Positions 18,935 through 59,948 of a stretch of 64,000 nucleotides of DNA are shown one piece after another. Position numbers and translations under genes: made by a program. Under the pieces are notes generated by a model. The model saw only the letters and a program-made list of their open reading frames with translations, searched no databases and had not been told where the DNA came from. Positions within the stretch are counted from its first letter, which is position 1. Each line of letters begins with the position of its first letter. The stretch is from Protonemura montana (Eukaryota; Arthropoda; Insecta; Plecoptera; Nemouridae). Location: NCBI GenBank assembly GCA_947568835.1, contig OX387602.1, positions 15,055,021-15,119,020 of the forward strand, given 5' to 3'.

Positions 18935-20734
18935 ATGGTACTTAGAAGGAACCGAACCGTACCGCAGGTACCGACTATGGACGAGCCTGCCAAGAAAAAG
19001 CAGCGAGTGGAAGACGGCGGGGGAGAATGGGGTGCCGATCAGGATCAAGATCTGCTGTCGATACAACAGCACCTTCTGACCCAGTGCTTGTGTCCACTGT
19101 CGGAGGCAAGCCTGCGGAAACCGTTCCAGGGAGCAAAGCTTGCGGCTGGTGAGCTGGCAAATGGCTACCAGACCCCTGTGCTCTCGGAATGGGGCCGAGA
19201 TCGCATCCTGCTGCTCGTTAGCTCGTTGCAGTTGCTCTGCGAGGTGGCCATCAAGCAGACTGCACGTGGTCTGGTCTGCACACGAATTGGGGAGATTTGT
19301 GACGTGCTCATCAGGAACGAGTACGGACTCATCGAGCAGCTCATCGACTTCTCGTCGCACAACGACCCATTCATCTGCTTCACGGCTAGCAGGGCTCTTT
19401 CAGCGTTTCTTATCGTATCGAAGTCTCATGTGAACCCAGGCTGGCTGGAAAGTCTGACAGAAAATGCTCTCATCACGTCCCAGTCACAAAAGATATCCTT
19501 TTCTTTGGAAGTGATTAAGCATGTTGTGGAGTGGAAAGATTTGGACAACCATCCACTAGAAGACAGCAGTGAGGAGAAGCCACCTTCGACGTGTGTTGTA
19601 GTTAGCATCTCCGATCCAGAAAGTCTCGATACTAGTGAAGTGAAGTGTCTTTGCATCAAAGCATTGGAAGCAAAGTGGCCTGCCATTGTTAAAAAGTTTG
19701 ATGGTCTCATAGGGTCGTATTCAAACGAGCATGAATCTACTATAGTGACATTTCTGGGACTGTGGGAGGCAATCATCTCTGTGAAAGCCAACCTGTCAGT
19801 CGTAGACACGAAACCTTTTTACGCTCACCTCGACAACTTTGTCGTACTTCTAAATTCAACGGTACCGCCAGGTATCTGGAAACACCTTTTGGATCTTTTT
19901 AACGAGATCTTGTGTTATGGTAGTACCCTCGCCCTCCAAGACGTGCTGGCCGAAGAACCATGTGCTTTGGCCCATCTCATTGTTCGCAGTGTGAAAGATT
20001 GGCACCTTCTGGATACCCTGCCCTACCGCGGAGGAAGCGGCAGGTTCGGAGGAGGCGCGGGGGATGGAGATCGACCACTACTCCAGAAGATGGTGTTGCT
20101 CGTGCTAAAGAGTGTGGCGGTGACCGTCAAAGAGACCAGGTATGACAGCTCGAGTGACAGCTCACTCGGCTCAGAAGCTGACGACGTGGACGCCGACATG
20201 GCCGTGATCGAGCGCAGCATCCGCGAAGTCCTTCGTCAGCTGGACAACTGTGTAAAATCTCTCCTGCCGTTTCATCCGGAAACTCCTTTAGCCCAGTGGG
20301 TTGTGCAATTGTTCGCAGACCAAGACGACGCTCTGATCGAGAGTATGGTTTGCTGTTTAGACGTTGTCGTCGGATTGTTTTATAGAAATACGACACAGTT
20401 AGATCTGAGGAGAACTCTGAGCCCTGCAGCTACGTTTGTCCAATTCTTACGGGTAGTCTCACATGACCCTGATGTGCTACTGGATCTTTTGGTATCCAAC
20501 GAAACGTGTTTTCTTCTGTACTTACTGCGACTTCTCAAGTTTTTACGGCGGAACTGGTCTGAATTTGTGGCGTGTTGTGGTCGCGAGCTGAGCGAAACGA
20601 TGACTGTTTTGATAAGGCTTCGGCTTGCCATAGATCGACTTGTATCAAAGGCGTTGTTTCCGTACAATATCAATCCGGTTCTGAGGCTTCTCGAAAAATG
20701 TGAACAAATGTATGAAATGAACGATAACAGCTAA
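18935..20734 (+). CDS. lin: Lines homologue (LINS1)
   Basis: Intronless frame of 599 aa. In Drosophila, Lines is a nuclear/cytoplasmic regulator of patterning downstream of Wingless and Hedgehog, acting with Drumstick and Bowl; human LINS1 is linked to cognition. The mechanism is not understood. The N-terminal half has the family's alpha-helical repeat character with LIEQLIDFSSHNDPFICFTA followed by SRALSAFL (about residues 133-160). A polar, Asp/Ser-rich linker (SSSDSSLGSEADDVDADM) is near residue 410, and the C-terminal block ends LRLLEKCEQMYEMN, as in the Lines C-terminal domain. An in-frame TAA lies just upstream of ATG 18935, so this is the first possible start in the exon. A second ATG at 18977 (MDEPAKKKQRVE, nuclear-localisation-like) has a good context and may be the real start. 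The protein is shorter than fly and human homologues. No coding intron was seen. Confidence 0.82.
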   Translation: MVLRRNRTVPQVPTMDEPAKKKQRVEDGGGEWGADQDQDLLSIQQHLLTQCLCPLSEASLRKPFQGAKLAAGELANGYQTPVLSEWGRDRILLLVSSLQLLCEVAIKQTARGLVCTRIGEICDVLIRNEYGLIEQLIDFSSHNDPFICFTASRALSAFLIVSKSHVNPGWLESLTENALITSQSQKISFSLEVIKHVVEWKDLDNHPLEDSSEEKPPSTCVVVSISDPESLDTSEVKCLCIKALEAKWPAIVKKFDGLIGSYSNEHESTIVTFLGLWEAIISVKANLSVVDTKPFYAHLDNFVVLLNSTVPPGIWKHLLDLFNEILCYGSTLALQDVLAEEPCALAHLIVRSVKDWHLLDTLPYRGGSGRFGGGAGDGDRPLLQKMVLLVLKSVAVTVKETRYDSSSDSSLGSEADDVDADMAVIERSIREVLRQLDNCVKSLLPFHPETPLAQWVVQLFADQDDALIESMVCCLDVVVGLFYRNTTQLDLRRTLSPAATFVQFLRVVSHDPDVLLDLLVSNETCFLLYLLRLLKFLRRNWSEFVACCGRELSETMTVLIRLRLAIDRLVSKALFPYNINPVLRLLEKCEQMYEMNDNS

Positions 20735-24085: not shown

Positions 24086-27000
24086 ATGTCTATTTTATTG
24101 GACATCAGACTAAAAAAAGCCAACAAAGTTTATCATGAAGGGGTGAGATTCTCAATTAGATTCTCAATGCTTACAATGTTAAATTAAGTGTTCATTCGTA
24201 GTTACTCAAATTATTTAATATTGACTTCATTTCAATAATGTTTCAATATTTAAATATTTATTTTCAATATATTTCAATAATTCAAAAATTTCGAAATTTC
24301 ATTTCAAAAATTATTTCAAAAATTTGGTTTGACAGCTCCTAAGAGACTTGAACAGTGAACCACTAACCCAAAGACACTAACCCTTCCATACTCTAAGTAA
24401 ACTTGTAAAACATCATACCCTATAATAATCAGGCAGCTCATTTCAATGTTCATTACAATGGTCATTACAATGGTCTTATAGCAATCTAAAATACATCTCT
24501 GCTGACTAGAGGACCTGGTTTAATACTGCTTTTGAAACTTCTACTCCGATATTTCAGCTGCAAGGTAGTCGAAGATTTGCATAATTTATTTGCAACGGAC
24601 TAATTTCTAGCACAAGGCAGCAAAGGCATGTTCAAGAATTTACTGTAGCCTGCAAACTAGAAGAAACTCTTTTTTATTATTAGGAACACTAATAACCTCT
24701 CAAAAATTGATACCCAAACGGGGAATCAAACCCCGATCTCCACCTGTCGCGCACGTTGCTCTAATCAATTGAGCTACTTGGACACATCATTTTTTAGATG
24801 ATTTTAGCGTTTTTGATGTGTATTTGATACACTAAAATCCTCTCAAAAATGATGTGTCCAAGTTGCTCAATTGATTAGAGCAACACCCGCGACAGGCGGA
24901 GATCGGGGTTTAAATCCCCGTTTGGGCATCAATTTTTGAGAGCTTATTAGTGTTCCTAATAATAAAATACCCGGCGCATTGCAAGCGTTTGCAACTTAAA
25001 TCAGATTTTGCACAGAAGAAGAAACACAGTTTTTTTTACTAAAACATCGGCCATAAATTACCATGACACCATGACTTCCAAAACAAGTCTGTCAAGAATG
25101 CCACCATGCTTGTTGATTTGGTTTTTCCAATAATTGTGAAACTAAAGTTACATACTGAACCCTTCAGTTATAGTACGTTGTGAATGCATAAGCCTGTGTC
25201 ACTTTCCATTTCATTCTGGGTGCTTAAAAGACATTTAACAGACACTTAACATTTAAGCACAAAAATACATTTTTAACACCAACTTTTTTTTTTTATCTGA
25301 AATATTGAAAGAACATAATTTTTTCTGCTTCCATGTTTACTTCAAACAAATTGGGATATAAATAGAATTGAGTAATATATATTTTAGCAAAGTTACAACC
25401 TACTTGCGTCTGACTACTTGCCCTGTTGTTTTATTTGTTTCAGGAAAAAATAACTGGATTCATTCTGGTTCAGTCAAATGCTGATTTTAAACATGACGGC
25501 ATAACACTGACAATGGATGGTACCGTCAACTTGCAACTAAGTGCAAAGAATGTAGGAATATTTGAAGCATTTTACAATTCAGTCAAGGTAAAATAACATT
25601 GCAAAAGTATTGCACTAGTAATTTCAAACTTTATCATTGATGTATGAAGAAAATCACCCTTTAATTTTTCAGCCTATTCAGCTTGTTTCATCCACAATTG
25701 ATGTTGCCTCCTCGGGAAAACTTCCAGCCGGAAAGATAGAGATTCCTTTCGAATTTCCATTGGCACCAAAAGGGAATAAAGTACTTCACGAAACATATCA
25801 CGGTGTATTTGTCAACATACAATATCTCCTGAGGTGCGAGATGAAACGTAGCTTTTTGGCCAAAGATCTGTCCAAAGTTGCAGAGTTTATTGTCGAATAC
25901 AAACCATTAGCTTGTGACAAAGCAGTTCCTTCGCCTGCAACATTTTCAATCACGCCAGATTCTGTGGTGATGAATACAAAGGAAAAGGGACGTATTCCAA
26001 AGTTTTCTGTCACTGGCCGCTTGGACTCAACCATGTGTTGTTTGACAAAGCCATTCACTGGAGAACTAGTTGTGGAGAACTGTGAGGTTCCGATCAAGTC
26101 TGTGGAGCTTCAACTTGTCCGCGTGGAGACATGTGGCTGCGCTGAAGGCTACGCTAGGGACGGTACGCATATCCAATAGAAAAGAGTTTCTGTTAGGAAA
26201 CATCTTGACAGTTTCTACAGCTCAAAATGAATAACAATCAATAATAAAAAAGCTAAGGTTGCAAAAAAAAAGACGGAGTCTTAAAAATATTAAAGTTATC
26301 ATTTTATCTGTTTATGTGAGAAAAAATGTCTTGAAATTAACTGGCAATTTCATCAAAAGCTTTGGCACTTTCTTTTTAGCGATTAAGTACTGATACAGAA
26401 ACTAGATTCATCAGCTATCCACCGCTAACCACTGTTTTCAAATCGCTGCTTAGTTGCTGCAATTGATTGGCATGTGTCCACAGAAAATAAAATGCAGTTG
26501 TTGTAGGATGCTAAATAAGTTGGGTGTTGATAGTTTCCTAGTAAAATGCAAATAGTAAATTTTGGTTGTAAGTAAGTGATTTAAGTAACCATTCGTAGAA
26601 AATTTACTTGGAGCCTTATTTACGAAACGCTGATGTATGTCAAAGTTAACCCACTTGTTTTGATGCTACAGTGCAAGGCTAACTCATCTTACCCTGCCTA
26701 TGCTTTATATAGTCTTACCTGACTATCTGACTATTCCAATACCTGACTATACCATGGGCATGCAGTGGGGAAGGAAGTGGGTATGGTCACATCTTTAAAA
26801 TACCGGTTTAATTGACGAAGTAAACCACTGGTAGTTGAATTGTATTCTTCAACTTTGTTTTGGAAACACACTTGTAACCTTAGAGTGGGTATGCAGCGCA
26901 CATCCACACCGATGTTACGCCGCATACCCAGCACACTCACTGCAAGCCCCTGAACTATTCCAAGTCCCAGTTCAATAACTGGGATTGTTACAGAAAAAAT

Positions 27001-41992: not shown

Positions 41993-44900
41993 GATCCCAA
42001 TTGCTGTGCTTACGCTCTTGATGAAATCAGATACGCACAATTATCGTCGAACTGGACCAAGTATGAAATTGATTGTAAAAATAATCCCTTTGCAACGTGA
42101 AAGATACTAATCTCTAATTATTGATGATATAGCTTTTCAGCTAAATTAAACGAGGATTTAGCAGTTTGATGTTTAGAAGAAATTCCTAATTGGCAGTTAG
42201 TTTGGACAGGGCTTAAAAGATGCTGCAATGGATGAACTTTCTTCCACCTTATGGCGCAAGACACTGGTTAATCGTTGTCCGAATAAAGAATAAATCAGTA
42301 AATGAAGAAACCCGGTCTTAGATGGGCCAACATTCTTGATAGCAGCGCATCGCTTCTACAGGTCGTCAGGCACAGACTGTGCCAAAGACTGGTCATGATT
42401 AAACGAAAATATGACATACCTGTCGCATTACCTGACAACTTTTTTTTTTAAGTCGAGTCCTGTGAACTGCAAGAAGGACCTAATGTCTTCTATCTTCGCC
42501 TAAGATTTAGACAGGTGGTGTAAAATAGCTCACTTGTGCCCTTTTAGTGTCATTTCCATTCAGTTCCTCTCTCATATCTGACAAATCAATCTATATATTT
42601 TTTACGGTTAGCGTCAGTGGTGTTTGAGATGGGTCAAGTCGCGTGTTATTGCAAGTTTAATAGTCATTTTTTTGTTATGAAACATCAACATCAACATCAG
42701 GAACAAAAAAAAAACGTAAAAATGGGAATTTATGACAGTTATACCGATGCAAACCACGCTGACTTCTTGCGTATGACATTAAAACCCGTATGATTGGTAG
42801 AGTAGGCCACTGAATACAAATTGGTCCTCGCACCTATAAAGTGGTATACGATGACTTACGGGTAGTCTATTCATTTTATTATAGATTTCAGTAGCAATCC
42901 GAGTGTAATCCTATTTGCTTTGAGTATGGGCCTTGGACTTCAAGTCAACCAATGAACCGTAATAAAATGCTTGATTTTACCACTAATTACAGTCCATTGA
43001 ATGAGGAGAAGACATAATGGCATTTCATATAAATTTATATCAACTCGGGGCATTTCATGCGGCTCGCATGCGATACGCGTGTTTTCGGGCGATAATCTTC
43101 GGTAGCCGTTGAGTCATCGGGAGTCCACGTCCCGCGGCAGAAACCGACCATAAATACAACACAAAGATGTCGGACAATCGTAAATCAAGTGATTTATAGG
43201 CCATGTAGATATTATTAATATAAGACGGTTCGTATTCAGGAGTCGGGTGCTAGCTCGCTCGCTGCTAGTCGCGGTCGCTCTTTGGGCCTGGGCAGTGACT
43301 TGCAGGTGTAAAAGAGTTCCAGTGATACAATATCTACCGTATATCAGCCGTGCTGCCTATTACCACTGTGACATCGGCAAAGATATTTTATAGCCGGCGT
43401 CGTTGCGTCGGTTTTAAAAATCATTGGAATTGACTGCATTCCACGGGGACTGCTTACAGAATTTCTTCGCCTGCTTTAAACGTGTGATGTGAAATAAGAT
43501 CGATGTACATCTGTGAATAGATATATAAAAACATGTAAGTTTCAAATTGAATTTGCAAAAGTGATGGCGAAATAATGAAAATATATTCATTGGTAAAAAG
43601 GATAACCCCTTGAGATTTTGGAGGGTGAGCTAAGATTTTATCAAAGACCAACTGTTTACTTTCTAGCTTTTAGTTTTTTTTTACTGGATGTCAATCTGAT
43701 AAGTTGTTTCGTGGTTATCTCCCTAGATGATATCTTGACGATGAAGATGCTCTTTGTATATCAAACAATGTTTCGTTGAGCCAGGGATTATTTAGGGGCA
43801 ATATCAACAGTAATCTCAACTCCTGTCCAGCGAAGTCCACGCATAACATTAGTTGTAATTGTGGCCATGAGTTAGCCAGACTGAGATATGAATACTATAC
43901 CAGCTCGTAGTAATTATCATCGTAATAAGTCATGGTCACAATGGGGTGACTTTTCATTCAACTCCAAACGCTAAGTAGGGACCAACCCTCAATTGAACGT
44001 GAAATGTTATAACTGGAAGTGGGCATAGAAAATAATTCTAACTTCTACGTAGATCTCCAGAAAGTATTTTGACCCTCCGGTACCTATTTACATCTTAATC
44101 TCGTCCACTCTGAACGGGGTTGCTTGAAAGCATCCCCAAATAATTTCACGTCGTCGACGCAATAATGGGCTAGAGGTGGAACGATTTCATTCAGAAGGGC
44201 GAAGGCTCACCGGCAATTCGGATGCTGCTGCGCACTGGACCATAAACAACTCATCTGGAATGCGTCTTCTCGGGGAAAGTTGGAGCCAATAGGATGTTAG
44301 GGGCGTTGAGAGTTGGAATTGGGAGGCGGCGTTGGTACCTCCTCTAACAGATTTGATGATAACGAGATGAAAGTGATGTTGTGCACTGCAAGCTTTAGGT
44401 GAAATGACATCTGTCTTTAGAAGCACATGGCTGCTGCTACTGCTACAGCTAGAACATGTTTCAACGCCCGCATCTACGAATTTCCGTGGTGATTTTTAGA
44501 GGACAGGAGAATGGAGGGAATCATGTTTGGACTTATTGATTGCTTACGGACAGGTCGAAATTTTAAATTGTTTAACTCCTGTCCCCCAACTAATGCATTT
44601 AATAATGTAATTGTCAAAGGAAGCGCACCACATTTAAATTTAATCCCAAGCCATACGACAAAAAAGTCGTGAAGAAAATGCCGTTTCGTCTGCGGCAACT
44701 TTAGGTTTATTGTATGAATGTCTTCAAAATATGAAATACTAACAGGTGGGCCAAAAAATAGAAACGTCCCTTTCTTATGTTCTGTGTTTTGTTATTTTTA
44801 GGGTTGGTTGTTTCGCCTTTACATTACAGGTTATTTTACAACAAATGCTAGCCCTGTGAGCCCAGGTAGAATAAAAATAATTACCGCAACCATTTCTATG

Positions 44901-45849
44901 AACATGCCACTCTGCGTAAAGGATGTCTTGCTGCTCTTGTATGTCTACCTGTACAGTTTCTGTTCATGCATGTAATAATTGACAGCTCGTATTTGAGATG
45001 AGTTTGTGCATCACAGAGAATGGTCGTTCCTGGTCGGTCACCGAAGTTATTAGTTAGTACATTGGATTCTGCTGATACCTACACTGTTGCAGAAATATGT
45101 ATTACCTACAATCGAAGATAACCTGTACTAAGCTGAAGCATGCGAATTCTTGCAAAAGTGAGAATATCATCAAATTGTTAGATAAACCTATTCAATTTCT
45201 TAAAAAACCTATAAATTCTTTTTAGGAATAGACAGGATTTGAGTGGAGCGATCTATCTGTTTCTATCTGTTTCTGTTTCTATCCGTCGTTTTTTTAACTA
45301 AAATGTAATTTAAAAATGTAAACTTTTATTGGTGTATAGGCTTTGGTGTGGTTAAATATAGTATACGCAAGAATTAATTTTCGAAATGGTATTCGAATCG
45401 ATTTCGACGCCACATTTGACACACTTCTGATTCTCACCGTCCATAAATGGATACTTATCTAAATAAACTCATTTCATAATTCGGAAAAATTCCATTCGAA
45501 TTAATATCAGTTTACACGGTCCTGTCGCTCTGATTTGTCCAGCATGCCAATTATCCGATATAAGTTTGAAAATAAAAGTCATGGCCCTTTTTGAAGGGTT
45601 GCAAGGTACTGCATTAGCAATATTGCAGGTATATAAAAAAATCGCATGTTGGTACACCTGTGAACTCTTCCCCTGGCTGAGAGAAAAGAATAGTGGGATT
45701 GTAGGTAGAATACCTCGGCAGCCTGGACCGACCGATGACGAACACGTGAGGCAAAGGGACCCAGGTTAGGTTAGTGAGGCAACCTCGTCAGTCATCTCCC
45801 TTCAGTGCTGGTGGCTGGTTGTGCGGCCCTGTGCTACGATCGCATCAAG

Positions 45850-45964
45850 TGAATTCAGTGTCAGATGAGTCGGTTTTGACGTAGATTCATAGACTCTTGG
45901 TTTAATTTACCAATATATTTAAATATTTGTTGGAAACTAAGTGCGTGAAAGGTGATTTTAACAG
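45850..45964 (+). promoter_or_regulatory. Candidate proximal 5' UTR exon of orthodenticle
   Basis: An initiator-like TTCAGTG (twice, near 45803 and 45856) is followed by non-coding sequence ending in TTTTAACAG and the donor GTAAGC at 45965. The next plus-strand acceptor with a coding exon behind it is at 47837/47838, directly before the orthodenticle ATG. A 5' UTR intron of about 1.9 kb is therefore plausible. The start point is a guess. Confidence 0.4.
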
Positions 45965-46186
45965 GTAAGCTACGCGCATGCGGTTTTATGTTTGTATTCC
46001 TTGATCGATAATGGTACTGTACCGTGTGATTCAGTTTTTTAAAGTTTGGGTTGCAAGTCCTTAGACATTTCTTATGGTTAATTATTATGTGGGTAAAAGC
46101 TTGTTAAACGGTCCGTACTTAAAATTTCAATGATGTCTTCCAAAGTTTTACATTTCTATATTAAATAGACATTTGATGTTCGTTAT

Positions 46187-46215
46187 GCGTGAAGAGGAAC
46201 ATATCCTCTTCACGC
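46187..46215. repeat. Perfect 12-bp hairpin
   Basis: GCGTGAAGAGGA, a five-base loop ACATA, then TCCTCTTCACGC. The stem is perfect. It falls inside the proposed 5' UTR intron of orthodenticle. It could be a protein-binding palindrome or an RNA hairpin; its length is below that of a typical microRNA precursor. Confidence 0.8.
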
Positions 46216-47837
46216 GGATTTTTGTTTTTGTTTGCCCACCTCGTATAGCTAGGTATTTTTGTATTTAGATAAGACTTAGTTTTTGGCTAATTATATGTTC
46301 ATTAATTTGGTTGTGTCGGCTGCGACCTTCATTAATTATTAATCTGTTTAGTAATTTAGGACATAGAGATAGTCTCCTAGCGCTTTGAGGGATTTGAAAT
46401 CACAAAATAATGGCAATAAAATGCCAGTACGTTATTATTATACCGTAGAAATGTGTACAGCGATTTACTACAAAGACGGAGTTGTCAGAACGGACACCCT
46501 TTAAAGTAGTAATAATTATCAATTGTCTACATTTGCTTCGCTACCGCGTTGTTGCACTCCCCTGTCTCCAGTGTCCGATGCACAATGACACGGCGTACCT
46601 GTCCGCACATTCAACCATCACCCACCAAACTCACCCACCGCTTTACCTGATGGTCATTGCTTTCAGACATTTCAACCTGACAATTTACCAAAATGTCTCA
46701 AAGAAAGGTGCTCACCACCTTCCTTTTATCTGATTCTACGAAAAACGCTTCTTTCATACACTGCGAACACGGCAAGTCTGTTTACTTGGGGATTTGCAAG
46801 TATCGGGTGGCTGTTCTCGTTTATGAGATATTTTGGGAAAGGATATTACCATTTTGATGGTTATTTGATCAAGTCTACCTTTGGCTTCAGCGGCCGGAAG
46901 TCCAGGTTCGGTCAGAGGGTTTATCTGAGCATTGCCAGAGGATTGAGTTGTCAATAGACCTGCCTTTGAGCTCCTGATTGGATTATTGCAGATGCGGAAA
47001 GCCACGAAACTGTAGAAGTCTCGATTGACACAAGTTATAATTGCCAAGGTGTTAAATTTGCAAACATGTTGTCAGATGGAACTAAAGTGTACAAATATTT
47101 TCAGAAGTAGATTCAGCAGCTTCTGCAATTGCATGTGACCGAAAGTTGAAACCCATATTGCGCAATCAAGTTTTTATCGGGCCGTTTCTCGAGCCAGAAT
47201 AAATGGGCTAAAATTGCTTTGTGGGCGAATTCCCTTTCTGTTTACAGTGGATGTAATTTTGGAGGCTGTAATAAACTAGGCGCCATAACGATAACACGTG
47301 ATCAAGTTACAAAGAATAATTGCTCTCCTCACAATTTTTGTTGACATTTTATGTGATTGCAGATTTGATTTCTTACCAATTTGTTACATCAAAATGTCAC
47401 TTCTTATCTAAACAGACTAATGACACCCGCGTTTCTATTATGATTTTCTGATGATCTTTTTGTTTTCGAAGTTTAGTTCGATTTTGATGATCGGACATTC
47501 TTTTTACTTCCGATATTCTTTTACTATACAGGGGCACAAACATGTATTGCAAGACCATGGACTGGACAAAGCAGACTTTTAATCCACCCCTGTTAAGCCA
47601 TTCGCGCGAATGGCTATGCGTGTTGTTACTTAAAATATGATAGCACAAATTACGTACACCTCTAAAGAAATTTAACTTTGACGGCGAAGGCAAATTTTCC
47701 CGCTTACCCGAAAATGTCGGCTGGCAAATCACCGTTCCTGTAGTAAATCCCACCCAACCGGGATTGTATCCCTCACATTTCTTCTCGATAGCTTCAACCT
47801 AAGGCGCCATAACTCTAATTTCACGGTTTTTTTTCAG

Positions 47838-50800
47838 GGTGAGCGACCGGCCCGTATACTGGAGTTCCCGTGCCGGTTCAGCCATATGGCTGGCTACCTG
47901 AAGTCCCCGGCACCACCTGTGCCGGCACATCACCAGTTCCACCCGCCCCACCACGGCGTGCCCATGCCGGGACTCTCGGGTCCTTTCGGCCTGCAGCACG
48001 CCCTCGACTCCGTGCATCCAGGAGTCGGTTACCCCCCAGGTACGAGGCGCAACTCGATATATTCGGTCGCATGTTCGTTGTTTTGGTGCTAATTCCGTTG
48101 ATGGTGGTTGGAAAAAGTTTTTCTGGGGAAATCTGTGGATTGGGATTATCGTACTCAGCGGAGAAACAATAAAACGGAAATGCTTATCACCATCTCAGGA
48201 ATGCCACGTTACAATTATCACGTAGCCAAGTATTTTTATTAGTTGTTTATTGAGAACCAAATGCTGCCAATATAATTCTCGATATTCCTCAACAACGTCA
48301 CACTAAATATGTTCACCAATGACCGCTTTTTCGGATAAAACAATTATTTGAACGCTGCGACGACTTCAATTATTTGATGCGAAGTGTACAACCAATTATC
48401 GGCCGCGATTTTAATTCCTTTACCTACCTCAGCAGATAATCACGCATTTTATTTAATTGAGTCCAGTAATCTCGTTGATTTAACCTGCATTTGATAGTTG
48501 TCCGCTTAGTCTGCCACACACTAGTATATGTAAGGTGAGTAAGACGGCAAGGATAAGGGGCATTGCGGGTGTCGACGCCGTCGTGGAAGCCATAGTGGGA
48601 CGTGTGCGCATCCCCTTGGGCAGACTTTGACCCAAAGGCTCTTGATTCGCATCCCGCTCTAGGTCTTCGGCCGTTCAACTACGTGCCACCAGGGCACGCA
48701 CCCCAGGGTTGTCGGTACATGCACCGACAACAATGTGGGGATTATATTGTCATTACATAATTACAGTGCTATGTAGATAACACTCTCAGACCTGGAAATC
48801 CTTCCCAAGTCATTACTACGATCAATTAGTTTTGATTGGTTGGGTATTTTTCACAGATCAAAATCAAGATTCACCATCAATATTGATCACTAAGTTCAGC
48901 AAATGAATTCCCGTGATTTAACGATAAGACGTCGCTTTTGTTTTCGACGTAGATTTTGTCTGTACGAAATTGATAGTCTCGCGATCTTGTGTGCCATAGT
49001 GCCATTATAACCTCGGTATTTTCAAAACTTGTTAGAGATTAAACCCCTTATGTGTATTAGACAGTTCTAGCGATCCAGGGTGTTGCTTTTTGAGTGCATT
49101 AGCGATAACCGTCCAAATCGTCCATTGCAACCATTGGCATTAAAATTAAAATATAATGTTAGTCGCCATTGATAGGAAAGTGTTGGAATCGCAGTGTATG
49201 ACGATGACCGCGTTGTTCTGTTCTTGTGTAGCCGTTCCCGGTTATTATAACCATCAGGAGCCGGGTCCTGGAAGCCAGCAAGCTAACAGGGAGGAAGCTG
49301 TGCGACCTGCCAGTCAGGTCCCCAGTCACTCCCGGTCTGAACTCGACGAGAAACTTCGGGAATTGCGAGAATCAATCAGTTTCCCTACCTCGCATTCCAT
49401 GGCCCCGGACGGGCTTGTAACATTCTCCCGATTACCTCCCGGTAAACTACGGCACACGAATCTTATTTACTATTTCAACTTTTAAGTGTACAATGTAAAA
49501 TTTGTGTGTGAAGCTGACTTGTATTGAAGCTCGACTGATCGCTGTCGTCATATGGGAAATGGCACCGTTCGTTTTCTGCGATACATCAGAAGTCACACAT
49601 GTTCGTAAGTTAGCCGGCGTTCATTTCCCAAATGCCGAAGCGTTTCTGGTCTGTTTCACCAGAAGTCATCTTTGCGCTCAACGCAAATGTGTGACTAACT
49701 TTGTGCATTCTTCGCAGGGAGTGGCCAGACGTATGTACCTTATAATAGGGCCGTTGCAAACCCAGGGTACCAGTACAATTTTACCCCTGAGCACAAGATA
49801 AGCGTCGTCGGTAAAAAGAAAAGAGGCAGGAAGCCGTTAGCGCTTCCCGCCTCAATTCCAGAATCGCAGAACGCCAGGGAAGACACGTTTGAAACTGCAG
49901 CGTTTACATACGGCAAGGACGGCATCGTAAATTTCTCAAAAAAGTACAAAAAAACTGGTAAATCAAAAATGCATCATATTTCTGTTTGAAGTTTTTAAGA
50001 GGTTTGACGCATTTCTGATAGGCCCCTTTTCAAATAATTCCAGCTCGCGAGAAACAGGTCAGCGTCGTTAAAAACCCTAGGGGAAAACCCAAGAAAAGCA
50101 TTCCCGGGCTTCCTGAACCAGCGGTCGAACCCGTTCAGGACACTAGCTTCTCGCACGCTCCCTGCCCGGGATCTAGTGCCTACTACCCCATAATGGAGCC
50201 GCCAAATGTTGCACATCAATCCGTGAAGCCTCACGGCGGCTACACGGTCGTTACGCCCTACTCGAACACAGGCGCAAAGACACTCAAAATTCCCCCCAAC
50301 CAAAGAAAATTCTCTCCAAAGACTACCGCGTCACAATCGAAGACGTACTCCGTCTCGTCGGATTCGTTCCGTGGAATCAACGCGGGATTCACGATGCTTA
50401 CGCCAACGACGTATGACAGCATGCAAACACCACAGGAAACTCGGTTCGACTTTCCACACAACACCGACTACTACCCAACAACAATACCAAATAACTTCTC
50501 ACCGAGCGAACGCACCGAGTCACCGAACATGTATTACCCCTACAGCGGGGCGGGCAATCTAAGCTCTGCGCTTGGCGTCCTAGGGCCTGCGTATGGTAAC
50601 TACGGATCTGCGTATGGTAACTACGGATCTGCTTGTGGCAACTTGAGGTCGGCTTACCAGTACACGCAAACGAGTGGGTGCTACTTTCCTCCGTCGTACT
50701 CCGTAGAACCTGCAGAGCAGACCTCCTCGGTGCCTTACTTTGTTTCACACTATCCGGGGTCGACCTACAATGCCAATGGAAACTACAGTGGATCTGCAGC

Positions 50801-53800
50801 TTACAATTCTGGACCTACTGGTTACAATGCATCGTCCGATTACAATGCGTCTTCCGGTTACAATGCACCTTCCGGTTACAATGCGTCTTCCGGTTACAAT
50901 GCGTCTTCCGGTTACATTGCATCTTCCGGTTACAATGCATCTTCCGGTTACATTGCATCTTCCAGTTTCATTGCACCTATGGACGAACCCACAAACTATA
51001 GTGGACGAGGTCCGCACATGCCAAATGACCGCGGGGCCTTCATGCCAAATGACCGCGGGGCCTTCATGCCAAATGACCGCGGGGCCATCATGCCAAATGA
51101 TAGCGGGGCCATCATGCCAAAGAATATCAAAACTGTGCCAAAGGAAAATGATTCCTACGTTGTACGTGAGGAAAGCTTCGTGCCAAATGTACATGTCCGT
51201 GGGCACTCCACCGTAGCAAAAAAGAAAAATGCCAATGACAGTGGTTCTAGCGATCACAACCAAAAATTCACGACAGAACTATCGTCGACAACCAATGAAG
51301 CTACGGATAATTATCTCAGTGATCTACTGGAGAATTCGTACGCAAGTGGGGAAGGAAATTTCATTCTCCCCAACCTTCTGCCTCCGATAATCAAGGAGGT
51401 GGTGTATGGCGACGTGACTGAACCAACGAAGACGTCTTCTGAACCTACGAACACGCCGCCTGAACATACGAACACGCCGAAACCGGACTCGACGACCAGC
51501 TCTTTCGACGACGCCACTGCTGGCAAAGAGGATGTGTCTGACGTCTGCGAGGATTCGGCTAACTCGGAGTATTTCTCCCCGTCGTCCTGCGATTCGGACA
51601 CGCTCTTTATAGACGAGGATGAGGAGGTTTTTGACGGTAAGATGCCTAATTACGATAGGATAAGGTAGCCGGATTAGGCTCGAGGCTCATTTGTGTTTAT
51701 TGTCATGTGGATTTTGCAAATGATGGTTCTCAATTGCGTTTTTTGGTTGTTACATATCTTTGCTAATTGCAATTCGTATGCTCTTTTTTGATTCCTCTTC
51801 ATGGTCGGGAAGAAGATATTCAGCAACTGTTTGTTGACAATCCACTCTAAGTTTTATAAAAATATATTTAGATACCCCGTGTGAAAGTCGGATTAGAACG
51901 GGACGAGGCTTGTTAAAATTATAATTTCTGCAAGAAAGTTACACATGTTTATAGAGTTAAAATATCTTTCTGTCGCGCGTTCTGCACTTTTATTACTAAG
52001 TATCGCAATATTATGTTCACAGAGGAATAAAGACAGAACGTACGCGTTCTCTCTCCCTTACACGTTGAAATGTAGAACCCCTGTGATGATCAGCGACCCC
52101 CTCCCCACATAACTTAATAGGATCTAACGTATCACCAACATCAAAGAGTTCTACGAATTAAGATAACGATGCGATTTTTAAATTGCTTCACAAAGGAATT
52201 AGTCTGATGGCCATTTTCTAGAACGATCGAAACTAATTGTGCACATGCGCTTAATAATGCGGGTCTGACTGGATTGTTGATCGATTATCGTAAGTAAACG
52301 TTGCAAGTAAGCAAGTAATTCATTACACACTACTTGACATTACATTGCCAAATCCGAAACGGAATTCTTGTCAAATTCCTTAGGACCAGGACATTTCTTT
52401 ATCGAAATCAAGTAGTCCGTACCTCTCTTATTTCTGTTTTACGTCTAGTCGGACTGTAAACAACTTTCTATGGACACCAACAAATGGATGGCTGATTCTG
52501 CTACTTACTTTGGTTTACTATTTAGCTACCTGCCTTTGAGAAATTCGATATAGGTACCATGTTTGTACCTATGGTATTTGTGATCAGATCACAGTCGAGG
52601 CGTTTGTAGCAACATGGTACTTGGCCTAAATAGTGCTACGATCGGGGCACGCCGCGGTCAAAAATAACACTTTTCTAAGAGGTCTCAAGGTGCCTGAGGT
52701 TTATCAACAAAAGCATGGGACAGTGCGATGTATCGCAAACTGCTCGAGTGAGTTCTTGGCAGATGGGTAGGAGTAACCTAAGTGACAGTAAGTGATGTAA
52801 ATGGACAGTGCAGACCGTTGAGAGCCGAATGGTCCAGAGAACAACATGATCCCTATAGATTGTATCTATTTGGTGGAAGAATATCGCGGGTAACTTTAGA
52901 TCGCCCGCGTTTGAAAAGAGTGTTTTCACAAAACTTCCAATGCGGAACGGAATGATTTTTCGAATTTGCGAGAAAATGGACACTTCACGACGGTTCATAC
53001 ACTCGTTGTCTTTTTTAAAACTTTCTCATTAATTTGTTATTTTTAGGGAGTAAATATTGAGATAACTGAGTCCACACACGTGGGCTGCACATGCGTTCGC
53101 CACACGTATCAGCAAATAAAATAAAATGTTTGCCGCCCTCTTTTTAACCGCACTCTTCCACCTAGCCGAACAAAAAAACGTTAATTGTTACAAGATTCCA
53201 CTATTAGTGAAACACAGCTACGGACTCGTGAATCATGTTTGGTATCATTGATTGGGGGCGACACGTGGGGCAAATTGATACTGGCTGAGGTTTGGTCGTT
53301 TGCTTTGCGGGGCGAACGGCGCACGTGGCGCGGTTTTAGGGCTCTTCGAGTGGACTTGCGGTGTGCCATGAGATCCTAACAGTTGCCCTGGCCCTTGAGA
53401 AACCCCCTATGCGCGCGAAGCAGTTAGCACTTTGCGTACTCAAATGTCTAGCGAATTGGACAATTTTCAACCAAACTAACCCTACTTGTTTTACCGTCCA
53501 CTGATAGGTTAGTTTTAACTTAAACATATGCCAAGTTTGTACCTATATTCATTTCCAATTGTGAAGATCGTACTAGCTGGAAAGTAAGAGATGCAAGTAT
53601 TAGAACTGCCCTCTGCTTTGCTACCGACTCGTGAGTGAAATTTCAGTTTCAAAATACTGATAATACAAAATGATCTCAAATTGCTAGCAACATTTTTATA
53701 TTTCGGAAAATCAAAAGATCTTACCGCGACAAAACTTTGGCGCAAAAGGGAAATGGAGAACAAGAACGGCGATGATTTTTATTGTTTTTTAACGACAGTT

Positions 53801-56800
53801 GGCCCACGAGTCACCCCAGAACAATTGGTGGCGCCTCTGTGGGAAAAGCCTGATCTTTTGCTGAAAAGAACATATCAAAATATATTCATTACTTTTTGTC
53901 GCTGATTCTTGACAAAATACCAAGATATTGGATACAAATATAAATTGTACAGGAATTTCAATTAAATTTCTCGTTTGCCGCTTTGCCCGTGTCATGGATA
54001 GATAGCGTTCAACTCTCGAGCACGCGACGATCGATCTACCCCAGCGCGTCCTCCGTTTAGTTGGCGGAACCAAACCGGCGGGCGATGTGAGAAAACGCCA
54101 GCTGAAAAGTGCGCAGAGAAGGAATGAAGGGATTTGCTAGTTTTATTCGTTCCGCGGCCCTGCACCTTCCTTGATTCCGGCGTGCACAATTCTATTCAGA
54201 AACTCAACGGCATCTCGAGTGAAACACAAATCACAATGAGTTTCATCTCTCGGCTCGGCAGCGCCGAGGGAGTTTTATTTACTCACGAAATCACAATTCA
54301 GAGATGGATGTATTCAAATGAAAATTTCTGTGTTTTCCTGTTTCCTTGGTGATTTTCGAATTATTTCATCCGATACATGAATATTTGTACGCCTCGATAG
54401 TACTCGATTTACAGACCTAAACGCCATACCATAAGTTACACATTACAGCGAATTCCATAATAATATGAGTGCATGATAATAAGTAATTGATATGCTGCAA
54501 GTAGCTCATTACAATGCAGTTCCAATTCACAGCGTCAAGCGACCAGTTAACCAACGTCAAAGTAAAAGACTTCATGAATTTCTAATTGGAAATTATCAAA
54601 TAACATAACGTGTGCCGTTTTTCTCGCCCTTTGAACGCTGAAAACGCCCAAGATTTCGATCCTGCTCGCCCCGCGATTGTACCTTCAATGCCCGGGCTCC
54701 GATACAGATGCGCCCGGGTCTAGTTTTTCGCATTTTACAAGCATGTGTCAGAAGAGAACCTCTTACAGTGGCGAACCGGGTACCAGGTGCAAAGGAGTTC
54801 TCATTTTTGTCGCCGTATCATGCCGCGAAGGAATTTACAACTCAATGCCTATCGCTAATTTGCGATAGGTTAATTCTGTCCACCCCTAATTATTTGCAGC
54901 GTTGGTACATATGCAGACAGGTAGATCTTTGACAGCTGACACGGAAGCAAGAATTGTCTGAAACCTTTCTCGCTAAACGTTATTTTTCTAAGAAATAAGA
55001 CATAATTTCGCAATAACACATCGCATTCGTGATTCAGAACTTACCTAATTGTCTGGATAAGCTTGAACGTGACAGCCGGGATGCAGACACGGGTGAAAAC
55101 TCACGCTTTTGATTTCAAAATGGCGAATTGACGTGCTGACGTTCTACATCTTGAGATCCATGCAAGCAGATTAGGTGCACACCTTTCTTGCGCGCGCCCA
55201 ACATTGTTGGATGGCATTGACAGACAATATCAAAGCACATCGACAATTGAAAATAAACCCATTTTAGCTACTCCACCATTCTATTAACTTTTAACCCTGA
55301 TATTTATCAGATAGTGAAAAGAGTAACTGCTAGGCATCCCCGTGATTTAGCCAGGTCAAGACAACCATTCATTTAAAACATAATTTATAAGGATCATAAA
55401 ACATACAATGGCTCGCCACTAAACACTAATGCCACCTAATCCTTGAATTGCTGCTGGTTTTTTTCCCTGTGGTGTATTGCAGGACCAGGACGTAATGTCA
55501 ACCCAGCTGCAGAACAAAAAATACGCCCGAAAAACCTTCCAAAAAATCTCGCCAACTTTGAAATTTATAGAATGTGGACCAATATCCAAGATGAAAGGAT
55601 TATTTGAGAAAAAACAAAGCCGTAAAAAATGAAATGAAAACTTTGCATCTAAAAAAAATGTATATCGCATTCGTTGTTTTTCATCGTTGTGATCCATCGT
55701 TGGTCGCGTCATGTTGGTCGGTCGGGCGAGACAGGACGTTTTCCCGCTGTCCTGGCGGTTTATTCCATCACCATGGGCCCATGTATCCATCCCATGGCTG
55801 CTGTCCCCCATCCTCATGCAGCCTCCCATGCAGCCCGTGCTAGCGGAGGCAGAGTCCTAAGCCGGCTTAGCGCCGAGGACCACGGAGCTTTGTTCGCTAC
55901 GATGTGACCCCCCCTGCCCCCCTGCCCCTGACAGCCACCACCCTCCGCGTGCATTACGCCCGATATGGGCCTGTAGTCATATCTGCCCCGCGAATGGAAT
56001 ACACACTTCCATTTCATGTAGACCTCGGCGACAACATGCAAGCTGTGCAGTTTCGAAAAATCGAACTGCCCCGGGAAGCTCTTGACGTCAAAGTTTCATT
56101 GCATATTTTATGTTTTAAATTTCAAAGATTGTTTCTGGTGAAAATCGCTTTCTGTCAAATCCCACGCGGAAGAAAAGAGATCGTTCGACAACGCAAATCA
56201 CAAATTTCCCAACGAAATGAGATTTTTCACCAAGCGTCCACAGTTTTCAACTTTCTTCCGTTTATATTTTGAACTTTTCATATTTTTTACCAGGATCCGG
56301 CCACCATTTTGTGTGCTAAAGAAGGACGCTCCTTTTCTTTCCAGGAGTGAACCCTCGGAAGCAGCGAAGGGAGAGGACGACGTTCACGAGAGCACAGCTC
56401 GACATTTTGGAGTCGCTGTTCGGCAAGACGCGATACCCAGACATCTTCATGCGGGAAGAGGTCGCCCTGAAAATCAACCTGCCCGAGTCCCGAGTGCAGG
56501 TAATTCGAGCTTACATCCTCTACCACCAAATCATCGGTCCAGGAATCGCAATGCCTTGGCGTGGTTTGTCACGAATTTAAAAAACCGAACGCACAACGAT
56601 ATGGACTGCAAAGCAATTGGCTGCAAAATAAATCGGACTCTATTTATAAAAAGTGCTAAAAAGTGCCTTCTGATTGTTGTCGTGTCTTAAAAAAAGCCAT
56701 TCTAAGCTTAGCACTTTTCAGCTCAACTTTGAAGATAGGTGTTGTATTAATTTTGTATTAAACCTGCAATTTCAAAGCCATCTGCATGCATTGGGTTTCA

Positions 56801-59800
56801 GTAGCTAATAATGGGTCTAGGTAGCAATGAAATTGGTGCTTCTAATACTACATAGAATGTATCACTGCATTCACGGTCATGATTCATTAGACAAGCTGAA
56901 TTTTTAAGTGCAATCGCTATGTCATTTACATGTTCTCTGAAAAACTAAATTATAAGAAAATGAAAATGGAATTGGGGTTGTAACTTTCGACTCGTGAGCG
57001 CGTATAAGCTCGTGTAACCCCGATAATCCCTGCACAGCATCGATTGTCGAATATTAATTCATAAAAAGAGCACATTAGTCGCGAGTCAACAGTGGGTGCG
57101 TGTTGTCCATTCGCACCCCGACGCAGAATTCGTGCCGTCTGCATTGCTTGTTTGACACAGAAATCGAGTTCAATGGGCCCTGCCGTATATTATGTGTGTT
57201 ATAGGCAACATTAAGTTGACACAGGGATAAGTCGGGGTCCCGTGGAACTGATGTCTTTAGCGATGTCTCCATTCGACATCCAAGTTAATCCTGCCATTGA
57301 CGTCGGCTGATCCTGCACCTTGAGCGCAAGGCTCACTGCGCGCTAGGTCAAAATTCAATTCACGGGTTTGCCAAGATTCGTCGTGTTTGCGATGGCTCAG
57401 CTTTTGCAATTTCGAATTTTCTATGTCCGTCCGTACATTTTTTTCCTCGTTTTTTCATTACAAACTGGTATTAAAATATTTTGCAACTCGTGAGTGAAGC
57501 TCCTAACTCTTAGAAACAGCTGACTTTCACTGCATGTGATTGGTTGTTGCCATGGCAATAAATTCAGCTCCCACTTTATCTTGGAGTTAATAAAATTTTA
57601 AAACTGGACATCAGGGAGGCCAAGTAGCGTCAAAGTATTTTCCTTCCCACTTCGGTCGGTTTTGTATTTGCACGCACTAAAGTTAACTTCACGAAGCAAA
57701 CTGGGAAAGTAAGTTTCCTCGGGCCTGCCACTCTATGCTAATCTCATCACAACTGTTGATGCTCTTGGTGCGCTGAACACAGAAAGTCGATCAGAGTGCG
57801 TGTGTTCCAAGTTAGTGGGTGCGTGGGTCGAGGCTCCCGCGGGCAAGTAAACAGCGCCACGTGTGCCCTACGCTGATCATGGTTCACGCTCGGCGCCGGT
57901 CATTAGGCAATCCAATTAATTTCGAGGGCAGTGTGGCGAGTATCGCTCTGTAGAGTCGGGAATAGAAAGTGTTAAGAATATTTTTTAATTCTCTACGTTT
58001 TCCTAGTTTTTTTTTTTACGATTTTAAATTAAGGTCATTTTTTAAAGCTAGTTTTTATGCTCTAAAAGCTAAAAACTCATTGTTATAGTGCATTTTTCTC
58101 TAACTTCCTTCTTCGTTTGTGGGAGTCATCCTCTTCTTGCCAGGAAGTAGTTTGTCTGGCTTTATCCCCCAGAAATCACAGCAAACCCGTCACGTTTAAT
58201 GCGTAACTTTTCAAGTTTCGTTTTCTCCCCGCATTTTTCCTCGTTCACAATTTCCAAAGGAGACAAAAAAGACTACGAATTTGTCACATCACGGGGTTAC
58301 GGGGGAGAATCGACGACGTGATTTTCAATGCTACGCAGTTTTCAAGCCCGCACCTTCTCATCTTTTTCATCAAATTTTTTTTCTTGAGTCAGTAGGGGTC
58401 TGATCTATTTTCCTCGCTCTTTCGAGCCATGATTGTGCGTAAGACTTTTGTTAGTGGAATCTCTCATACTACAGCATCTCTTCTCGGTCGCCGCAGAAGA
58501 CTTGTAGACTGTCTCCACTGCATTATGTGTCCTCCAGCCCTCCTCTCTCGCATGGAGCACCTATTTCCATTAACCGTGCGAGCAGCGAAAAAAGGGCGGA
58601 TTAGACCTCAGAGAATAAAGGGCCCATGGGTTGGGGGTGCTGTTCTACAGGGGTGTAAATGACTGGCCCAATGTTTGCACGTCTGAGCCAGCGGGGAGGG
58701 GGCTGCATGTGTGCACGACACAGAAAATAGATTCAAGGGATGAGGGTTGAATATCTAGAATAATGAAATCACATCAACTGTTTAAAATGGCTTGGCTTGG
58801 TCTCCAGGAAAAGCGATACAGAGTGTGTAAGGGAGAGGGCGGGATGCGACGGAGCGGACGACCAAATTGAGTTTCAATTTGCGATGAATTGATGGGGCCC
58901 ATCGGACTCGCCGGAGCGAACTCTGATAACAATAAACACTGTATCAATATTCAATAACGCGGAACAGTGATCGAGCGCTACGACGAGATGACGAGGCTGT
59001 CGGATTTCGATGCAAGATAAAGTGACGTAAATCTCTAGGAGATCGGAAACGGAATGTCTGCAACGGTGCGCAGGGCTCCGCGCGGCACGTGATTTGTGTG
59101 ATAAGCCGACCTCTGAGAGCTAATTCGATTGTCGTGTTCTCTTGCAGGTCTGGTTCAAAAACCGGCGAGCAAAGTGTCGCCAACAACTGCAACAACAGCA
59201 GCAACAACATCAACAGACCCTTAGCGGCTCCCCGACCAAGTCCTCGAGAGCCTCCAACAATAACAATAAGATAAAATCTTCCACCAAATCACCCCCGCCC
59301 CTGACGTCTTCGTCTTCGCTACCTCAGCCACCGCTCATCAAAAACAATATCTCGAACAATGCTAGTGCGTCGCCCCCGCCGAACAACGGCATGATGTCGA
59401 TAAAGAAAGAGTCTTCGCCGGGCGTGCCGGCATACCACCACCAGCTATCGACGACCACGACGGCCCCGTCGTCGGCGCATCGCATCAACGTGCCGAATGG
59501 ACCGACGACGCCTTTAGGTGGAGGCAGCAGCGCGCCGTCGTCGATCATGACGACACCGAGTCCCCCGGTGACGCCTGGCAGTTCGGCGGGGTACCAGACC
59601 GACCCTCTGGGCCCAGCTTACAACTTCTGGGGCCCGACCGGCAACTCGAACGCCGCTTCTTGCTACTCTCAAAACTACGGGCAGTACTACAGTCCGATGG
59701 GGGTGGATTACTTTCCACCACCTCCCCAATCAGTGAGCCACCACCATCAGATGTCTGGCGGGTCCAGCGGCGGGGCCAACTTGTCCCAACACTACTCGTC

Positions 59801-59948
59801 GCACAATCAGATGCTGGCGGCAGGGTATCACCATCAGATGGCCGCGTACTCGGGCATGAGCATGGCCGGCCACCAGTCGTTCAACTCGGTGCGGCATCAG
59901 GACTGCAATCTGGACTATCAGTCAGACAAGTACATTCTGGCGGACTAG
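47838..59948 (+). CDS. otd: Orthodenticle / ocelliless (Otx-class K50 homeodomain factor)
   Basis: Otd is a nuclear transcription factor for head, eye and midline development; its K50 homeodomain binds TAATCC sites. An acceptor at 47837 opens the exon with 48 bases of 5' UTR. Coding exons are 47886-48039, 56345-56499 and 59148-59948, giving 369 aa. The N-terminus [11 protein letters not shown] and [11 protein letters not shown] matches insect Otd. The homeodomain is about residues 58-117 ([12 protein letters not shown] to [10 protein letters not shown]) with lysine at position 50 (K107). The second intron splits it between homeodomain residues 46 and 47, the classic paired-class position. The tail has a Q run, ITTPSPP-like [11 protein letters not shown] and YNFWGPTGN, as in fly Otd, and ends [11 protein letters not shown] without the vertebrate Otx tail. 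Intron 1 is phase 1 and holds the exons at 49232-51668. Confidence 0.95.
49232..51668 (+). CDS. Unrecognised AT-hook/low-complexity protein exons inside otd intron 1
   Basis: Three plus-strand exons: 49232-49441, 49718-49957 and 50044-51668, with GT-AG introns all in phase 1. Exon 1 encodes [17 protein letters not shown] and a charged helix ([14 protein letters not shown]). Exons 2 and 3 each begin with related basic blocks, [16 protein letters not shown] and [18 protein letters not shown], the first a good AT-hook. Exon 3 continues with a Tyr/Asn/Ser/Gly-rich region: AYGNYGS repeats, nine SSGYNA-type units, four MPNDRGAF-type units and three EPTNT-type units, ending in an acidic stretch [20 protein letters not shown] follows at 52026. 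The 5' end is uncertain. Otd exon 1 joins in frame (742 aa in all), or an ATG at 49156 or 49198 could start a nested gene by reading through the acceptor. No family was recognised. Confidence 0.65.
50817..50979 (+). repeat. 18-bp coding tandem repeat (SSGYNA units)
   Basis: Nine units of 18 bp (like TCTTCCGGTTACAATGCG) encode [24 protein letters not shown] (two), [18 protein letters not shown] and SSFIAP. The frame is kept throughout with mostly synonymous or conservative differences, which suggests it is translated. Confidence 0.85.
51018..51113 (+). repeat. 24-bp coding tandem repeat (MPNDRGAF units)
   Basis: Four full 24-bp units start at 51018, 51042, 51066 and 51090 and encode [24 protein letters not shown] and MPNDSGAI; a fifth, MPKN, is degenerate. 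The near-identity of the units indicates recent expansion. Confidence 0.85.
52026..52031 (+). terminator. Poly(A) signal after the otd-intronic exons
   Basis: AATAAA about 360 bases after the stop at 51668. It supports the third intronic exon being a true terminal exon rather than an open frame by chance. Confidence 0.5.
52032..56344. other. Rest of otd intron 1
   Basis: No further exon was recognised between the intronic poly(A) signal and the homeobox exon. A GC-rich block at about 55720-55990 has open frames in several phases (one reads [11 protein letters not shown]), but no clean acceptor and donor pair was found. The remainder is AT-rich. Enhancers are possible. Confidence 0.45.
56500..59147. 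other. otd intron 2
   Basis: Phase-0 intron of 2.65 kb splitting the homeobox, donor GTAATTCG and acceptor CTCTTGCAG. No nested gene was seen. A CCATGG-centred palindrome (GTTGCCATGGCAAT, near 57544) resembles the core of the dispersed repeats in the first 6 kb, but the flanking order differs. Confidence 0.6.

Follow-up and report, generated by a model that had tools for sequence, protein, structure and literature searches.

Three nested coding exons in intron 1 of otd1 of Protonemura montana: a second end of the host transcript or a gene of their own?

Within the first intron of the head-patterning gene otd, Protonemura montana (Plecoptera, Nemouridae) carries three exons on the otd strand that encode a protein of no recognized family, and the question raised by this locus is whether they belong to otd or to a gene nested inside it. 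The stretch analyzed, called the window here, comprises 64 kb of contig OX387602.1 (C1; positions 15055021-15119020) from a genome of 258,480,905 bases on 34 contigs. A preliminary description of this DNA had joined the first coding exon of otd to the three nested exons in one frame, and had proposed an alternative transcript in which AT-hook-like motifs and a Tyr/Gly/Ser/Asn-rich domain replace the homeodomain. The analysis reported here indicates that the nested exons are very probably an intact multi-exon coding unit, an orphan, inside intron 1 of the host gene (otd1). That they form an alternative 3' end of the otd1 transcription unit is plausible and mildly favored, at about an even chance.

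The host gene and its nested exons

The canonical otd1 gene is intact and encodes a protein of 369 amino acids (aa) through three segments on the + strand, on which the nested exons also lie: (i) coding exon 1 (47886-48039; 154 nucleotides [nt], or 51 codons plus one base), which ends in phase 1 with the donor CAG/GTACGA; (ii) the first part of the homeodomain exon (56345-56499), which starts in phase 1; and (iii) the last coding exon (59148-59948). The homeodomain matches Pfam PF00046 (E 4.4e-21), its best PDB match is OTX2 (8e-36), and it is split by an intron before VWF, with the donor after ...SRVQ at 56499, as in homeodomains of the Otd/Otx type. Near the presumed otd 5' exon there is an open frame (45467-45769, ATG at 45581) with a phase-1 donor at 45764 that would permit another N-terminus.

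Intron 1 of otd1 is 8.3 kb long and carries nested exon 1 (49232-49441, 210 nt) and nested exon 2 (49718-49957, 240 nt), both of phase 1-1, followed by a terminal exon, exon 3 (50044-51668, 1625 nt), which starts in phase 1 and ends in TAG. A candidate polyadenylation (poly(A)) signal for the terminal exon, AATAAA, is at 52026-52031, and AATATA occurs at 51861. All borders of the nested exons are GT/AG. The donor of otd1 exon 1 can be joined in frame to the homeodomain exon and also to the nested exons, the latter giving 154+210+240+1625 = 2229 nt, or 742 codons with a single, terminal stop, so that the continuous frame of the preliminary description is borne out. By a simple splice score, the weights of which (like the rules for start context) come from general knowledge and were not learned from this species, the nested junctions rank first among 84 and first among 76 frame-keeping donor/acceptor pairs, and the acceptor at 49232 falls in the top 3.2% of the 3335 AGs in the window.

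The long terminal exon is almost certainly coding. It is part of a frame that stays open for 548 codons; the longest run was 257 in 300 dinucleotide shuffles of 1.7 kb and 237 in 20 shuffles of the whole window, and the frame used is the only stop-free one of six in exon 1, in exon 2, and in each of three pieces of exon 3. Codon usage was scored with a codon model of this genome against a noncoding null in eight non-overlapping segments. Two of these were exons 1 and 2, and the other six were blocks of 60 codons in exon 3 outside its repeat part (50586-51125). The fractions of the null that matched these segments were, in order, 2.5, 9.4, 7.1, 1.4, 4.6, 23.9, 1.3, and 0%, and five of the eight were below 5%. 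For this first model, four of the eight homeobox loci named (L005, L008, L009, and L011) gave no usable frame and were left out, and the training frame of L010, which lacks a homeodomain motif, was probably wrong. A model retrained with L004 and L007 as its only homeobox loci, leaving out L006 and L010 and holding out otd1 exon 1, again singled out five of the eight segments, and the held-out positive control passed, as none of 1500 null stretches matched otd1 exon 1. The coding score of the 5' part of nested exon 1 (49234-49398) was matched by 3.0% of the null, and by 2.3% after retraining. Between copies of the tandem repeats, synonymous changes number 4/8, 1/4, 3/9, and 4/8 against expected fractions of 0.26, 0.22, 0.27, and 0.24, a slight total excess; these counts are too few to be relied on as evidence of selection.

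The description of the product as unassignable to a family still stands, as no Pfam or NCBIfam family was matched by the nested protein at cut-off. Two matches fell below threshold and are put down to chance, exon 1 to DUF6653 (E 0.3; 11.1 bits, cut-off 27) and the terminal exon to NF008991 (E 0.79; 9.1 bits, cut-off 696), and a PDB search with exon 2 returned a single chance match (E 0.34). Within its own genome no second copy was found of the terminal exon or of the DNA at 48040-50043, and none of exons 1 and 2 with the start of exon 3, whose three matches all fell at this locus. The first 177 residues of the terminal exon had no match among viral contigs, a negative that is empty because the otd homeodomain, used as a control, was likewise without a match; they had none among bacterial and archaeal contigs either, which speaks against a close prokaryotic source and no more. 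Scans with Rfam and for tRNAs found nothing. A derivation of the nested protein from the Otd C-terminus was considered and set aside, as the LGPAY.../YFPP likeness (25 of 500 shuffles; E 0.002-0.008 without composition correction) was treated as a matter of composition. Among the literature matches listed, and in the passages of PMC6783274 considered, there was no description of an otd isoform of this kind or of a gene nested in otd.

Properties of the nested protein

Exons 1 and 2 together encode 150 residues with a net charge of +6. Exon 2 contributes the basic motif KKKRGRKP (codons 49813-49836, with RGRKP at 49822-49836), which resembles both an AT-hook and a nuclear localization signal, and a second basic, weaker AT-hook-like motif, RGKPKK, is encoded at 50079-50096. 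The AT-hook (PF02178) is defined by an RGRP core motif. The AT-hook is a loose resemblance only, since neither RGRKP nor RGKPKK has this core; no AT-hook match was returned by Pfam at E<=10, a scan in which the hmmscan filters can drop so short a model and for which no positive control was run. Of what the preliminary description saw here, the basic motifs are present, and a second DNA-binding architecture is not established, the core being non-canonical. HMGA-type AT-hook proteins have a short basic motif around R-G-R, are disordered, and end in an acidic tail. The nested protein appears to be like them in all three respects and differs from them in lacking the RGRP core and in returning no AT-hook match in the Pfam scan.

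The Tyr/Gly/Ser/Asn-rich domain, on the other hand, is real. It is a stretch of 140 aa (50574-50993), also rich in Ala, built on 21-nt and 18-nt tandem repeats (GYNASS), and contains 15% Y, 14% G, 21% S, and 9% N without being Gln-rich. By composition, it corresponds to the Tyr/Gly/Ser/Gln/Asn-rich disordered stretch of prion-like and FET-type proteins; the RNA-binding domain of the FET type was not found in the Pfam scan of the nested protein. Further downstream are a 24-nt tandem repeat of about four copies (51017-51121, unit MPNDRGAF/I) and a Ser/Thr-rich acidic tail with a net charge of -21 over 178 aa (51132-51665). The nested protein looks disordered by prediction: the product of the terminal exon has a mean pLDDT of 37.7 in single-sequence AlphaFold2, which is weak evidence of disorder because the prediction used no alignment. 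Judged from these sequence features, the acidic tail and KKKRGRKP would fit a nuclear protein. A nine-residue pattern for activation domains has one match, NYLSDLLEN, to which no weight was given.

Alternative 3' end or independent gene

If the nested exons are an alternative 3' end of otd1, transcription would proceed from the otd promoter, and in some cells or stages otd1 exon 1 would be spliced to 49232 rather than to 56345, with the transcript ending near the AATAAA at 52026. The product would be a protein of 742 aa with the Otd N-terminus and no homeodomain, followed by a basic segment that may direct it to the nucleus, a low-complexity Tyr/Gly/Ser/Asn stretch that may self-associate, and an acidic tail, and it might modulate or compete with Otd. 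The choice between the two ends would set the amount of full-length Otd. By switching splice and poly(A) sites within intron 1, the gene would make a homeodomain-free protein with the Otd N-terminus at the expense of Otd itself. We infer that the 48039-49232 junction is used, that the protein is nuclear, and that it modulates Otd or competes with it. The most complete version of this proposal, in which otd1 has one promoter and one shared coding exon serving two proteins (a homeodomain factor and the 742-aa protein with its basic segment, self-associating stretch, and acidic tail), captured a terminal exon set that otd2 does not have, and carries a splice/poly(A) switch acting on head patterning, can be put forward only tentatively.

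Three lines of evidence, namely the coding signal, the likeness between exons, and a scan of donors, mildly favor the alternative otd transcript of the preliminary description. The proteins encoded by nested exons 1 and 2 align with a score of 44, against a shuffle mean of 23.4 (sd 4.3) that was exceeded to this extent in 1 of 2000 shuffles. The likeness spans from PGY near the 5' edge of exon 1 to DGLVTFSR near its 3' end, and each half of exon 1 is also above shuffles against exon 2 (37/2000 for the 5' half, 30/2000 for the other). Nested exon 1 thus looks like an internal coding exon, in that both the coding signal and the likeness to exon 2 reach the acceptor at 49232, and an upstream coding exon is therefore probably needed. 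The exon 1 donor of otd1 is the best coding phase-1 donor nearby: among the five ATG-led phase-1 donors that score at least 1 in 44000-49149, one is that of otd1 exon 1, and the remaining four, all further upstream, are not known to be part of any gene. In 48040-49181, none of 76 GTs both scores at least 1 and ends an ATG-led phase-1 frame, the nearest being 48734 (0.99, five codons). Moreover, neither TATA[AT]A nor TCAKTY occurs on the + strand of 48040-49231, where a separate gene might have its promoter, and the same scan finds both in 45001-47840. Many insect promoters are without both motifs, so that their absence is a weak point.

Several observations weigh against this proposal. The continuity of frame with otd1 exon 1 is worth only about 1 in 3. 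If the exons were independent, phase 1 throughout would arise by chance in about 3% of cases (0.3 cubed, taking 0.3 as the frequency of this phase), but the first two nested exons look like copies of one symmetric exon, so that their shared phase is not independent; tandem exon duplicates must be symmetric and of one phase. The likeness that suggests this is itself weak and shuffle-based, and it does not extend to other pairs: exon 2 against exon 3 (216/2000 shuffles) and exon 1 against exon 3 (1491/2000) are not significant, and the Otd N-terminus shows no likeness to nested exon 1 (590/2000) or exon 2 (111/1000). By codon score, a minus-strand frame out-scores the frame used, slightly in exon 1 (0.235 vs. 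0.221) and clearly in the repeat piece (0.258 vs. 0.126), and stretches of 25-55 codons give the codon test little power. A perfect donor at 48534, between 48039 and 49232, could be the end of a noncoding first exon in a separate transcript; with no ATG-led phase-1 frame leading to it, this donor cannot carry the frame. Upstream of the acceptor, exon 1 has an in-frame extension (49150-49231) with ATGs at 49156, 49198, and 49204 that permit a start of its own. With this upstream frame, the alignment to exon 2 gains VA (score 44 to 49), the V lying beyond the acceptor, which slightly favors such a start. Eleven hydrophobic residues before 49232 are readable as a secretion signal, although a pyrimidine tract would encode residues of this kind anyway. 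The general expectation, too, favors separate nested genes over isoforms. The tandem paralog otd2, located about 31 kb beyond otd1 (C1:15142476-15147079, about 23-28 kb past the window end), has no such arrangement in the 124 kb scanned; its presence there was not required, and would have supported the isoform. Exon 1 of otd2, near C1:15142476, begins MAYLKSSPYSVNGIGLAMPSMDPLHCYPPG, its homeodomain match is at 15142882, and its intron 1 measures only about 0.3 kb, with borders judged by eye. Away from their own locus, the nested exons matched only the otd1 tail (E 0.008, a composition match) and chance-level rows (E 0.56-0.77) in these 124 kb.

The separate nested gene that the preliminary description had named as the alternative stays alive, and an independent gene on the same strand with its own promoter in intron 1 of otd1 is credited with a serious chance, slightly short of even. 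Such a gene could take two forms. In the first, a noncoding first exon would end at 48534 and be spliced to 49232, with translation starting at 49399 (635 aa). The donor at 48534 is the only perfect match to MAG/GTRAGT on the + strand of the whole window, and a good acceptor lies 98 nt ahead of it at 48436. ATG 49399 is in frame and is the first ATG of exon 1 in any + frame, although a preceding 167 nt free of ATG is also seen in 11% of base shuffles and 20% of codon-order shuffles. This form would, however, leave 49232-49398 untranslated despite its coding score and the likeness of this half to exon 2. In the second form, transcription would start just upstream, 49232 would be no splice site, and translation would begin at 49156, 49198, or 49204 (716, 702, or 700 aa). 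An A stands at -3 of ATGs 49156 and 49204, and the V gained upstream of 49232 suits this form, yet it requires 49156-49230 to be coding, a segment of only 25 codons whose score is matched by 32.5% of the null (27.2% after retraining), and it makes the strong acceptor at 49232 accidental. For both forms, the missing TATA[AT]A and TCAKTY count weakly against a promoter of their own; in their favor, nesting in a first intron is known from VAChT in ChAT (summarized in PMC3053374), and intronic poly(A) signals of Drosophila are reported as silent (as outlined in PMC3890989). The segment 48436-48534, neither splice site of which is part of an exon in the preliminary description, may be an unrecognized noncoding exon, either of otd or of a nested gene. 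As a 99-nt coding exon it was rejected: the frame entered from otd1 exon 1 contains a stop (by eye).

A special case of the second form, its probability contained in that of the independent gene, is highly unlikely: the product would be secreted, with a start of its own and a signal-peptide core, as a structural protein rich in repeats and comparable to those of egg-shell, cuticle, or silk. Hydropathy, which peaks at 2.5 over the nine residues ALFCSCVAV, and the presence of N-X-S sequons in the GYNASS repeats (14 in all vs. 9.1 in shuffles, 95/2000) would suit it, but the hydrophobic stretch falls on the pyrimidine tract ahead of the AG, the sequon count away from the repeats is at chance level (9 vs. 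7.8, 741/2000 shuffles), cysteines are few (5), and KKKRGRKP and the acidic tail suit a nuclear protein better. It is similarly improbable that nested exons 1 and 2 serve also, or only, as otd cassette exons before the homeodomain, giving Otd proteins of 439, 449, or 519 aa in which a basic segment precedes the homeodomain when exon 2 is included. Both exons are multiples of three and all three combinations are stop-free, but frame neutrality of this kind is expected anyway for duplicated symmetric exons, and the 1.6-kb terminal exon would be left unexplained and need a use of its own. The least probable reading of all is that there is no working gene, and that a decaying or never-expressed open frame is seen. 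The repeats look fast-evolving, and no homolog was found in the collections searched (the genome itself, and otherwise viral and prokaryotic sequences); against this stand the 548 open codons, the intact splice sites, and the codon signal in five of eight segments.

Known parallels, neighboring sequences, and significance

An alternative 3' end of otd1 would have counterparts in lola, mod(mdg4), and broad, where alternative 3' exons change the DNA-binding part behind a common N-terminus. In these genes the common part carries a BTB domain and the alternative exons encode zinc fingers. The likeness is one of architecture, with one 5' coding part and alternative downstream exons that give a different C-terminal half; unlike them, otd1 would share only 51 Otd residues, and its alternative is without a recognized domain. 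VAChT and ChAT lie on the same strand with a possibly shared 5' end, and VAChT has its own start codon and no protein sequence in common with ChAT. As summarized for that pair (PMC3053374), the guest coding unit sits in intron 1 of the host, as here, and VAChT consists of one coding exon, in contrast to the three nested exons of otd1, which continue the host frame.

Homeobox-gene isoforms that have no homeodomain, or a deletion in it, are exemplified by MEIS1D and OTX2S (abstracts of PMC3157405 and PMC4795653). In OTX2S, a splice form of a vertebrate otd relative, the deletion lies in the homeodomain, and the effect of this form on the tyrosinase promoter is transdominant (PMC4795653, abstract). 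Neither abstract mentions a long unrelated C-terminal replacement, whereas in otd1 about 690 residues would replace the homeodomain and the tail. Intronic poly(A) signals in Drosophila are described in outline as silent unless the 5' splice site is removed (PMC3890989), and host and guest ends can therefore coexist; for human genes, it is reported that a nested gene can drive its host into exonization and cryptic polyadenylation (PMC3192792). The poly(A), exonization, and OTX2S cases are analogies and not evidence for the otd1 locus.

Elsewhere in the window are open frames of 606 codons (18914-20731), which looks like the Drosophila gene lines or a homolog, and of 185 codons (25622-26176), which resembles DSCR3/VPS26C. 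After otd2, the open frames at C1:15150571-15166419 have the look of coding exons from a large genghis khan/MRCK-type kinase. TTAGG is the telomere repeat of most insects. TTAGG arrays are plentiful in this genome, with 30-mers matched exactly, overlaps included, 6912 times on one strand and 6102 times on the other, against none for a reversed control, and among the matches listed some lie well inside contig C1, which is 33.1 Mb long (C1:11637666-11638095 and C1:16524876-16526433).

What the nested exons mean for the biology of P. montana depends on which reading holds. If they are a separate gene, an orphan resides within a developmental regulator whose transcription it must share. If they are an alternative end of otd1, a deeply conserved head gene would have gained a second product, in otd1 and not in otd2, and how much homeodomain protein is made would be tuned through a single splice choice.

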